64,000 nt of DNA. It comes from Thermogemmatispora onikobensis (GTDB lineage: Bacteria; Chloroflexota; Ktedonobacteria; Ktedonobacterales; Ktedonobacteraceae). The position numbers and the translations under genes were made by a program. The notes under the pieces are model-generated. The model was not told the DNA's origin and made no database searches. It saw only the letters and a list, made by a program, of their open reading frames with translations. The stretch lies in NCBI RefSeq assembly GCF_001748285.1, contig NZ_BDGT01000037.1:1-64000 (forward strand). Direction: 5' to 3'. This document shows, in pieces, positions 22,689-25,842 of this stretch. Within the stretch, counting starts at the first letter, position 1. Every line of letters starts with the position of its first letter.

Positions 22689-23135
22689 CTACTTGACGAT
22701 CACCGTCAAGTTCATCCCCTGGTGGATCGTACAGTAGAGCTTAAATGTACCAGCGGTGGTGAAAGGGCCAATTTGCTTGGTATCGTTGCCGCTGAACTGC
22801 ACATCGATCTTGGGAGCACCGGCCTCGATTCCAGGCTTGGCAGTCCCGTTGACCCATGAGCCGTTCTGAATAATGTGTGGTACAGCGACAGTATTGACAA
22901 GCGTAATCGATTCGCCCTTTTTAATGGTGATAGAGGAGACCTCGAAGTTCGCGGCATCCATCTTCACCGTGTTCCCCCCACTGGCACTGCTCGCCGCCGA
23001 AGAACTACCGCTGCTGTTTGCATTGGCCGCAGTCGAGCTGGTCGTTCCAGGCCGCGTACAGGCCACCAGCAGCAGGCTCACCAGCGCCAGCGCCGTCAAC
23101 ACCAGCCACAGCAAGCGTAGAGGTTTCTGCTCCAT
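22689..23135 (-). CDS. Cupredoxin-domain (amicyanin-like) lipoprotein
   Basis: 148 residues. A type II signal peptide ends in LLLVAC, making C26 the lipidated cysteine. A ~35-residue Ser/Thr/Ala linker follows, then a single cupredoxin domain. The type-1 copper ligands are visible as H87 (VPHII), C135, H138 and M141 (YCTIHQGM), with the short C-x2-H-x2-M spacing of amicyanin-type proteins. It would be a membrane-anchored electron carrier or copper binder outside the cell. The start at 23135 (MEQKPL) is preferred over the longer frame because it directly precedes the signal peptide. A similar lipoprotein is encoded at 44611. Confidence 0.87.
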   Translation of the reverse strand: MEQKPLRLLWLVLTALALVSLLLVACTRPGTTSSTAANANSSGSSSAASSASGGNTVKMDAANFEVSSITIKKGESITLVNTVAVPHIIQNGSWVNGTAKPGIEAGAPKIDVQFSGNDTKQIGPFTTAGTFKLYCTIHQGMNLTVIVK

Positions 23136-23309
23136 AGCAACCTTGTAGCCTCTCAATCCTAGCCGATGCCGAAAGCAGAACAATCTGCACGCACAATAGA
23201 GCGCTGTAGCCCCTGGCTAGTGGAGCTAGAGGTAACGCTCTCTCTGTCTCTCGGCTCTTCTTGCTTTCGGGAATATGATACGGCGACTCGCAGCCCCTGC
23301 AAATCCGGC

Positions 23310-23336
23310 AAATACCCGATATTGCGTCGGGTATTT
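23310..23336. repeat. Perfect 10-base inverted repeat (operator or terminator-like)
   Basis: AAATACCCGA (23310-23319), a seven-base loop and TCGGGTATTT (23327-23336). It lies in the gene-free interval 23136-23640 upstream of the cupredoxin gene. Flanking A and T runs would suit a bidirectional weak terminator, and the symmetry would suit a dimeric repressor. Nothing else was recognised in this interval. Confidence 0.6.
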
Positions 23337-23647
23337 ACCTGATCTATTAGCTCAACTGCAAAGAGCAGCATCCCAGCAGCAATCGCTACCCCCGCTCCTC
23401 CCCCCTTTGGCCCAGCCGCTAGCTCGTCACGAACAGAAGCCAGGCCCCGCTTTTACACCCGAGCGCGAGCGGCAGAGAGGCCGCCAGTAGCCTCGATAGG
23501 CGCTACAGGAGAAGTCGGTCCGACCGGCCCCACCTTCATTATCTTTCTCCAGCTTTTCAGGCTTCTTGAATAGCAGGACCGCTACAAGCAGCCTGACATT
23601 GATTTTGCAAATTTTCAACAAGCTACCCCTTCTTGCCCAGGCCCTCC

Positions 23648-23676
23648 TTGACTTCCGTGAAACAACATGGTATACT
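23648..23676 (+). promoter_or_regulatory. Strong sigma-70-type promoter of an RNA gene
   Basis: TTGACT (23648-23653), exactly 17 bases, TATACT (23671-23676). This is among the best matches to consensus in the window. It is followed directly by the structured, terminator-bounded unit at 23683-23997. Confidence 0.8.
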
Positions 23677-23761
23677 CTAGGTGTTCCTGGCAGGGAACAT
23701 TTCCAGGGAACGACCCTGGCACAAGGCGCAGGCTTTGCTTGGAATCCCGAAAGGAGGTTGT

Positions 23762-23815
23762 ATGCAGATGAAGAAACCGATACGCCTCTTAGGGATGGTG
23801 TTCCAAATTGACTAG
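23762..23815 (+). CDS. 17-residue peptide ORF inside the structured RNA
   Basis: ATG 23762 to TAG 23813-23815 encodes MQMKKPIRLLGMVFQID. AAAGGAGG (23750-23757) lies four bases before the first ATG and ten before the second (23768). The peptide is short, basic at the front and partly hydrophobic. It could be a leader peptide, a small membrane-active peptide, or a chance frame beside a good ribosome site. No homology judgement is possible at this length. Confidence 0.5.
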   Translation: MQMKKPIRLLGMVFQID

Positions 23816-23953
23816 GAGCGCCCGTAAAAGCGGGCTATCCGAGCCTCTGAGCGCTGCGCCATCGATCTGACAACCGCTGTAACTGCGAGGCTTATGTGCG
23901 GTCGCGACGACGGGGTGACCGTCGGGTCCTGGCAGGCGTAAACAGAGGGTATG

Positions 23954-23997
23954 CGGGGCATACGTAAGATCTATTTATGCCCCGTCCTTTTATTTTT
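23954..23997 (+). terminator. Intrinsic terminator of the structured RNA
   Basis: CGGGGCATA (23954-23962) pairs with TATGCCCCG (23976-23984), followed by a T-rich run (23985-23997). It sits 31 bases before the lepA stop codon on the opposite strand. Confidence 0.75.
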
Positions 23998-24027: not shown

Positions 24028-25842
24028 CTACTCCCCGTCCTCTTTCAGCGAGAGCACCGCCATGAAGGCTTCCTGGGGAATCTCAACACTGCCTACCATC
24101 TTCATACGCTTCTTACCCTCCTTCTGCTTCTCCAACAGCTTCCTCTTGCGTGTGACATCGCCTCCGTAGCACTTGGCCAGGACATCCTTGCGCAGAGCCT
24201 TGATGGTCTCACGCGCGATGACGCGCGAACCAATAGCCGCCTGGATTGGCACCTCGAAGAGCTGACGGGGGATCAGTTTGTGGAGTTTCTCGACCAGTGC
24301 ACGCCCCCGGCGATAAGCTTCACTGCGATGGACAATGATGGAGAGCGCGTCGACTGGCTGTCCGTTCACCAAAATGTCCAACTTTACCAGATCAGCCTCG
24401 CGGTAGCCGGCAAAGCTGTAGTCCAGAGAGGCATAGCCCTGCGTCCGCGACTTGAGCTGATCGTGGAAGTCCACGATCAACTCGGCCAGGGGCATGCTGT
24501 ATGTCAGCAGGACACGATCGGCCTCAATGTATTTCATCTCCTTGAAGACGCCACGCCGGGCAGTGACCAGCTCCATAATCGGGCCGATATAGCGGGCCGG
24601 TGAGAAAATTGACAGCTCCACCCACGGCTCCTCAATCTTCTCGATCTCGCCAGGCGGGGGAAAGGCCGAGGGGTTATCCACCTTGACGATGTCTCCGCCA
24701 CGCTTCGTGACATAATATTCCACATTGGGCGCCGTAGCCAGAATACGCAAGCCATACTCGCGCTCCAGCCGCTCCTGGATGATCTCCATATGGAGCAGAC
24801 CCAGGAACCCACAGCGAAAACCAAAGCCGAGAGCCGCCGAGGTCTCTGGCTCGAAGGAGAGCGAAGCATCATTGAGCTGCAACCGCTCCAGGGCCTCGCG
24901 CAGCAGCGGGTAGTCATCGCTATCCACCGGGTAAAAGCCGGCGAAAACCATCGGCTTGGCCGGTTTGTAACCCGGTAGCGGCTCAATCTCGCCCAGGGCC
25001 TCGGGCACGGTAGCCGTGTCGCCAACTCGACAATCTTTGACGTTTTTGAAGCCCGTGGCCAGATAGCCAACCTCACCGGCACTGAGCAGCTGGGTTGAGA
25101 CCATGCGCGGCTGAAAGTAGCCAGCTTCAATGACTTCAGTAACGCTGCCGGTGGCCATCAGAGCAATGCGATCACCAACGCGCACACTTCCATCTACGAT
25201 GCGAACGTAGGCGATGACCCCTTTGTAGCTATCATAGTGCGAGTCGAAGACCAGCGCCCGTAAGGGACGCCCAAGGTTGCCATGCGGCGGCGGAACACGC
25301 TCGACAATAGCCTCCAGAATCTCGGCAACGCCGATCCCTTCCTTCGCTGAAGCCAGGAGGCACTCGCTGGCAGGCAGGCCGATGACCTCTTCGACCTCCT
25401 GACGCACCCGCTCAGGATCAGCACTCGGAAGATCGATCTTGTTAATGACCGGGATAATGGTGAGGTCCGCCTCCAGGGCGAGATAGAGATTGGCCAGGGT
25501 CTGGGCTTCGATTCCCTGCGTGGCATCAATGACGAGTAAGGCCCCCTCACAGGCGGCCAGGCTGCGCGAAACCTCGTAGGTGAAGTCAACGTGTCCTGGT
25601 GTATCGATCAGGTTCAGCTCGTACTGCTCACCATTGCGCGCTGTATAGAGCATGCGTACGGCCTGAGCTTTGATGGTAATGCCCCGCTCCCGCTCTAGCT
25701 CCATCTGGTCGAGCACTTGCTCGGTCATCTCGCGGCTGGAAATGGTACCGGTGTATTCCAGAAGACGGTCGGCCAGGGTCGATTTGCCATGATCAATGTG
25801 CGCAATGATGCAGAAGTTACGAATATGGGCTTGATCCGTCAT
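24028..25842 (-). CDS. lepA: Elongation factor 4 (LepA)
   Basis: 604 residues, the usual EF-4 length. GTPase motifs are present: [16 protein letters not shown] (G1, ~14), [10 protein letters not shown] (G2), DTPGHVDF (G3), [10 protein letters not shown] (G4). The EF-4-specific C-terminal domain ends with [41 protein letters not shown]. It acts on the ribosome to remodel or back-translocate stalled complexes. The ATG overlaps the mnmA stop by four bases (ATGA), indicating translational coupling. Confidence 0.97.

Follow-up and report, generated by a model that had tools for sequence, protein, structure and literature searches.

A conserved short open reading frame set at a near-fixed distance from an RNA hairpin in a predicted standalone RNA of Chloroflexota

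The window analyzed here is the whole stretch of 64,000 nucleotides taken from one contig of Thermogemmatispora onikobensis, and the unit under study occupies positions 23648 to 23997 of its forward strand. Its upstream neighbor is a minus-strand gene (22689-23183) whose product resembles what we take to be a plastocyanin-type cupredoxin, while lepA (24028-25842, minus strand) lies on the other side, so that the unit converges on lepA. The promoter, TTGACT-17-TATACT (23648-23676, plus strand), carries a TG 5' of its -10 hexamer (extended -10) and is the top-scoring sigma-70-like site within 22-26 kb; TTGACA/T-17-TGnTATAAT-like sequences occupy the equivalent position in almost every Ktedonobacteria homolog. 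At the opposite end, an intrinsic terminator (23953-23997, plus strand) composed of a GC stem (23953-23984) and a T-rich tail faces the 3' end of lepA; a simple terminator scan missed the stem because of its long loop, whereas the predicted fold pairs it. No long ORFs lie inside. The unit thus has a promoter and a terminator of its own and is a predicted standalone RNA of ∼315 nt, and the promoter, the terminator, and the convergence on lepA (rather than a role as leader of lepA) all agree with what had been proposed in the original prediction. Separately, a perfect inverted repeat, AAATACCCGA...TCGGGTATTT, occupies the intergenic positions 23310-23337 upstream of the cupredoxin-like gene and is a possible operator or terminator.

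The predicted transcript (23683-23997) folds at -135.4 kcal/mol, compared with a shuffle mean of -108.7 (z = -4.9; 0 of 100 shuffles as low), in keeping with the structured RNA anticipated there. All of its parts lie on the plus strand. Its structured 5' leader (23683-23737) comprises the hairpins P1 (23683-23698), P2 (23703-23719; CCAGGG/CCCTGG, with a CCAGAG/CTCTGG variant read by eye), and P3 (23723-23737), and the sequence noticed earlier as a duplication, CAGGGAAC, supplies hairpin arms near 23692 and 23704. A Shine-Dalgarno sequence, AAAGGAGG (23750-23757), in which AAGGAG is invariant or almost so among homologs, precedes the 17-codon ORF that had been described behind it, MQMKKPIRLLGMVFQID plus TAG (23762-23815; ATG at 23762, TAG at 23813-23815). 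ORF codons 4-17 form the conserved 14-codon peptide core KKPIRLLGMVFQID (23771-23812), which is of the GVWQVD type elsewhere in the phylum. A 7-nt spacer containing the stop codon (23813-23819) leads from the Asp codon to the hairpin GCCCG-UAAAAG-CGGGC (23820-23835), and a structured, lineage-specific 3' domain (23844-23948), recognized from the fold and from homologs, is closed by the helix CCUCUG/CAGAGG, which becomes CCCCUG/CAGGGG in L038 and L040. Covariance analysis of homologs, which the original prediction had suggested, revealed pairs changed on both sides in P3, in the GC hairpin, and in the analogous 3' closing helix. Moreover, two features go beyond that prediction, which had been made without homologs: the hairpin right after the ORF belongs to the conserved core, and the peptide itself is conserved.

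Searches against known families returned no match in the unit. With Rfam, which had been named as a check, only three hits far below threshold appeared in the unit at E values up to 10, no covariance model exceeded its gathering threshold in 14 Ktedonobacteria loci, and none matched the unit itself in any of 20 loci from other Chloroflexota. The Yfr6/Downstream-peptide RNA (RF01704) had no match in the unit, and 6S RNA (RF00013) had none in the whole genome of the organism (G000) at E ≤ 1. ARAGORN detected no tmRNA in the window, the tmRNA of the organism being a separate gene on contig 15 of G000, and the earlier exclusion of both tmRNA and RNase P RNA therefore stands, since the sole Rfam match in the window is a bacterial class A RNase P RNA located elsewhere (36208-36705, minus strand, 263.5 bits). 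Six peptides of 20-34 amino acids matched 0 families of Pfam and NCBIfam at E values up to 10, a result whose power is limited by the shortness of the peptides, and the literature searched held no transcriptome or paper describing the element. Thus, neither the three family databases (Rfam, Pfam, and NCBIfam) nor the literature that was covered describes the element; its parts (leader ORF, arrest peptide, dual-function RNA) are of known kinds. A mobile or phage element was rejected, as the GVWQVD pattern had no match in viral contigs and tblastn of one peptide had none in plasmids.

Homologs were present in both close and distant relatives, so that neither of the two computable conditions named as refuting the original prediction (an Rfam hit, absence from relatives) came true. 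A plain DNA search found the unit in 31 of 101 relatives, and a model (R1) found codons 4-17 in 44 of 47 Ktedonobacteria genomes, the three others being 84-89% complete; such conservation indicates that the unit is no chance arrangement. With at most one mismatch, the peptide-core pattern matched 41 of the 47 genomes, and its reversed control gave no match. When the degenerate pattern, built on the Ktedonobacteria-type peptide, was run over the genomes of 84,980 species, it returned 34 stretches whose titles name Ktedonobacteria or Chloroflexi, save one MAG labelled Acidobacteria (L079, DAHVCP010000029.1); there the unit stands beside a lepA 63% identical to that of the window, and the label is probably wrong. 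In genomes with long enough context, the strand of the unit converges on lepA-mnmA at a distance of ∼0.25 to 3 kb, while the genes in between and upstream vary and lie on either strand. This constant orientation amid varying genes marks the unit as an old, standalone locus. Regulation of lepA by a leader or by antisense was rejected as a general function, given that distance, the intervening genes on either strand, and the different neighbors in other families.

Most genomes hold a single copy. Some paralogous copies are minimal, lacking the large 3' domain but retaining the core; examples are two tandem copies in L103, three in L107, and a single one in L105. In L107 (G017, probably Thermosporothrix hazakensis), the Shine-Dalgarno sequence, peptide, and hairpin are repeated in tandem three times within 220-700, the first copy having ATC where other copies have ATG or GTG. 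The genus of the window also contains a divergent second copy (L150; G000:C32:14254-14315, also in G002, G003, and G004) with the peptide MLKLPVRLLGMVFQVDRVGP and with a promoter, a GGCCC/GGGCC hairpin, and a terminator, all within about 200 nt.

Among 44 distinct 42-nt cores, pN/pS was 0.197; in 200 column shuffles its median was 0.90 and its lowest value 0.385, shuffle counts being no probabilities here because the sequences are related. Changes are mostly synonymous, and this pattern of substitution shows that the ORF is under coding selection. A strong Shine-Dalgarno sequence precedes the start codon in nearly all copies, and the core, whose C-terminal end does not shift, is preceded by anywhere between one and roughly a dozen residues. 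In addition, the Gly codon of the core is GGA or GGG in 41/41 Ktedonobacteria and 27/29 other copies, versus 23/75 in lepA plus mnmA, and the mRNA is therefore constrained beyond the amino acid.

The peptide and the hairpin are coupled in position. At all 48 Ktedonobacteria sites, which were picked by peptide alone with the hairpin left out of the search, exactly 7 nt separate Asp (core codon 14, ORF codon 17) from CCCG...CGGG. The stop codon follows Asp by 0 codons at 27 of these sites, by 1 at 8, by 4 at 9, and by more than 14 at 4, so that the C terminus ranges from QID-stop to QIDRECP-stop to read-through forms, and four of the ORFs continue through the hairpin. Since the spacing stays constant despite the shifting stop, it is to the Asp codon, and not to the stop, that the hairpin is tied. 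In part, the constancy could stem from indels being rare within a stretch of 7 nt or from an ancestral overlap in coding (ECP-stop read from the hairpin). As for the hairpin itself, four pairs are invariant in Ktedonobacteria and one of the five covaries, the outer pair being changed on both sides in four sequences from three lineages.

To follow the unit across the phylum, model R1 was applied outside Ktedonobacteria, where it gave weak matches. Those in G311, G157, G122, and others belonged to longer reading frames and were dropped; L156 and L154, whose initial E values of about 1e-3 to 6e-3 were weak, were kept only after family-mates and an independent model supported both, their own scores in that model not counting because both belong to its training set. 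The pattern CAR-RTN-GAY-N7-GCCC...GGGC, which imposes the 7 nt and the first four pairs, revealed many short ORFs ending in GVWQVD or near variants among 400 Chloroflexota genomes, and the matches L207, L220, L227, L228, and L235 were discarded because they lay inside long ORFs. Hairpin pairs 5 to 8, which the pattern leaves free, keep pairing through change. Over all eight pairs in non-Ktedonobacteria Chloroflexota, 98.4% are paired, and covariation is strong, with 28 compensatory cells compared with 6.8 in shuffles (0 of 500 reached that number). With the hairpin left out of the pattern, a search by the GVWQVD codons again found short ORFs with the hairpin mostly 6-7 nt after Asp (exceptions, 4 and 8).

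Thirty non-Ktedonobacteria copies were curated. Their best stem starts at 7 nt (14 copies) or 6 nt (8 copies), and at 0 to 13 nt in the others, a count that depends on extra outer pairs, clear cases falling at 4-8 nt with such pairs included; the stop codon lies 0-1 codons past Asp in 25. A promoter-like site was found in 23 and an intrinsic terminator in 23, and neighboring reading frames are on both strands about equally. Model R3, trained on 25 GVWQVD-type copies, recovered 61 non-Ktedonobacteria Chloroflexota genomes from 28 families at E ≤ 1e-4, training genomes included, and also matched the Ktedonobacteria unit, which was outside its training set, in several genomes (E of 0.004-0.04). 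These cross-matches of R1 and R3 join the two branches. The 3' domain differs from family to family; in one group, its closing helix UCAGG/CCUGA and an inner ACCC/GGGU helix covary. In G140 (L215, near 170), the motif is duplicated inside a single ORF, RAFLGAWQVDQAFLGVWQVD, with only one hairpin.

Most copies stand alone, and a small number lie ahead of genes that are pyrE-like or encode secreted proteins. Four genomes from three families (L203, L250, L251, and L257) have the unit and its terminator directly before an orotate phosphoribosyltransferase-like (pyrE-like) gene, an identity resting on best matches below the NCBIfam cutoff. The small genome G347 has four GVWQVD copies (L254, L266, L267, and L268) upstream of different genes, mostly for secreted proteins, and G367 has one just upstream of a gene; the genes behind the G347 and G367 copies include one metalloprotease by Pfam and one with a protease-inhibitor-like domain below threshold. 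L266 and L267 have promoter-proximal sequence in common, one of the G347 and G367 copies has a terminator-like hairpin followed by T5, and the four G347 copies fit the hairpin geometry poorly. These pyrE-like and G347/G367 placements may be mere neighbors or true attenuators.

With the anatomy of the predicted transcription unit, the coding selection, the conserved hairpin, the stop-independent spacing, and the phylum-wide recurrence all shown by the compared sequences, we infer, at somewhat less than an even chance, that on a standalone RNA the short nascent peptide makes the ribosome pause up against the hairpin and does so in cis with the structured 3' domain. The conserved end of the ORF would be a cis-acting nascent-chain signal. 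With the Asp codon in the P site, the first hairpin base pair would stand at +11, within the leading edge of the ribosome, and peptide and hairpin would jointly pause or arrest it when termination is reached or immediately before, and a ligand or the ribosomal state may be a condition for this. The mRNA helicase of the ribosome acts near +11. At stalled ribosomes, reverse transcriptase halts 15-17 nt away from the first base of the P site (PMC7897499), and thus a hairpin starting at +11 falls inside the ribosome footprint. Once paused, the ribosome would determine how the 3' domain of the same RNA folds or what becomes of it or, in the few leader-type copies, what becomes of the gene behind. 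Because most copies lack a downstream gene that could be regulated, their flanks lying on either strand, the output in an arrest model must be the RNA itself. A cis pause against the hairpin accounts jointly for the peptide, the spacing, and the hairpin, and it is further favored by the hairpin covariation, by the Gly codon constraint, by a variable N terminus before a constant C terminus, as in known arrest peptides, and by the leader-like copies. Against it count the more variable Asp-hairpin spacing outside Ktedonobacteria, the differences in the 3' domain among families, the poor geometric fit of the four G347 copies, the few ORFs that continue through the hairpin, and the other possible sources of a constant spacing mentioned above. 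A bolder form, which we consider possible but rather doubtful, is an undescribed phylum-wide RNA class in which a short peptide and a hairpin park a ribosome that, together with the 3' domain, serves as a sensor or a trans-acting complex. If ribosomes are parked without a gene to regulate, this would be a new use of translation as a sensor. None of Rfam, Pfam, and NCBIfam contains this tiny phylum-conserved ORF with its physically coupled RNA hairpin.

The original prediction had offered three readings, namely, a new noncoding RNA class, a dual-function RNA, and a small-peptide mRNA with a structured tail. The sequence evidence supports this set of readings and narrows it. The main rival to the cis pause, unlikely in our judgment but a serious candidate, descends from the latter two: the 17-residue peptide would act in trans, whether as a signal or by attaching to some protein or membrane, and the leader, hairpin, and 3' domain would serve stability, regulation, or base-pairing. 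The strong promoter, 5' hairpin, and perfect Shine-Dalgarno sequence, as if for high expression, the purifying selection on the peptide, the whole ORF in tandem in L107 and L103, as if for dosage, and the duplicated motif in L215 all favor it, and such a peptide would be among the shortest widely conserved bacterial proteins. However, neither the invariant 7-nt spacing under a variable C terminus nor the Gly codon bias is explained by it, and no signal sequence or constant partner gene is seen; a trans-acting peptide would not need a fixed Asp-hairpin spacing, which counts for the cis pause. The unit is not a mere peptide mRNA, since structural conservation extends to the hairpin and, where copies are full-length, to the leader and 3' domain as well. 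The plain noncoding reading, with an incidental ORF, would suit the strong folding and the lack of long ORFs but is refuted on sequence evidence by coding selection (pN/pS of 0.20, below the shuffle minimum of 0.39) and by the conserved start codon and Shine-Dalgarno sequence, and we give it hardly any credence.

Transcription attenuation, in which leader peptide, hairpins, and terminator would govern read-through into the next gene (pyrE-like, secreted-protein, or, in antisense, lepA), draws on the four copies just 5' of pyrE-like genes with a terminator between and on the leaders of G347 and G367, but it is improbable for the unit as a whole because the gene that follows lies on the opposite strand or is a different one in Ktedonobacteria and in most other families. 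Still less probable is a stop-proximal hairpin that slows termination or recycling, or keeps exonucleases off the 3' end of a mini-mRNA, the nascent chain playing no particular part; the hairpin does come close behind a stop 0-1 codons after Asp in the 25 of 30 copies mentioned above, yet the spacing tracks Asp, not the stop, and four Ktedonobacteria ORFs read through the hairpin. A GGA/G codon resembling a Shine-Dalgarno sequence upstream and a hairpin 7 nt downstream recall recoding cassettes, and read-through would yield DxECP-stop in several genomes. Programmed frameshifting, read-through, or bypass at the Asp codon is nevertheless very improbable, as the downstream frame is not conserved, no slippery sequence or heptamer is conserved, and the site codons vary (CAR RTN GAY, also ACT and AGC); frameshifting and bypass were rejected for want of a conserved slip site.

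Comparison with known systems places the unit closest to arrest leader peptides (ErmBL, TnaC, SecM, ApdA/ApdP, and others), which likewise have a short ORF or a fixed short C-terminal motif after a variable N terminus and RNA structure near the stall site, the latter being predicted in the unit. The unit has, like them, a conserved C-terminal motif (KKPIRLLGMVFQID or GVWQVD) at a ribosome-relevant place, its Asp codon lying at a fixed or nearly fixed distance from the hairpin. Known arrest leader peptides, in contrast, control a cotranscribed downstream gene, which most families of the unit lack (exceptions being G347, G367, and the four pyrE-like cases), and the unit mostly stands alone and ends in its own terminator. 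They have no Pfam or NCBIfam family in common with the unit, for which arrest is predicted only. The bypass of T4 gene 60 and frameshift cassettes combine a nascent peptide with a stem-loop just downstream, but the unit has no conserved take-off and landing sites or slippery sequence and no downstream frame. SgrS/SgrT, SR1/SR1P, and VcdRP are standalone small RNAs that also encode a small protein, as the anatomy and coding selection suggest for the unit. SgrS/SgrT and SR1/SR1P act by base-pairing and through a separate peptide. To our knowledge, all three are distributed more narrowly than the unit and show no fixed peptide-hairpin spacing. VcdRP is a dual-function small RNA that combines base-pairing with a separate peptide (PMC8672173), and ErmBL stalls at an Asp codon, its tenth (PMC8274638), the predicted site of the unit also being Asp. 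The cyanobacterial Yfr6 is an RNA of ∼250 nt with a short ORF after a structured 5' UTR (PMC2864571), an arrangement seen in the unit as well; its conserved part is the 5' UTR element, whereas the conserved core of the unit is the ORF and the hairpin after it. tmRNA (RF00023), finally, resembles the unit in that a short ORF lies inside a structured RNA of 300-400 nt, but the ORF of the unit has its own start codon and Shine-Dalgarno sequence, and a tRNA-like part is absent.

Two further observations concern the surroundings of other copies. Outside Thermogemmatispora, the 3' domain of copies such as L038 and L034 has a conserved small hairpin, ACAC(G/A)GGAGUUGUG, that stands directly before the terminator and resembles the GGA loop motif bound by CsrA-type proteins, for which it is a candidate only. 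Near one unit of another Chloroflexota genome, a c-di-AMP riboswitch occurs on the minus strand (L221, 392-521).
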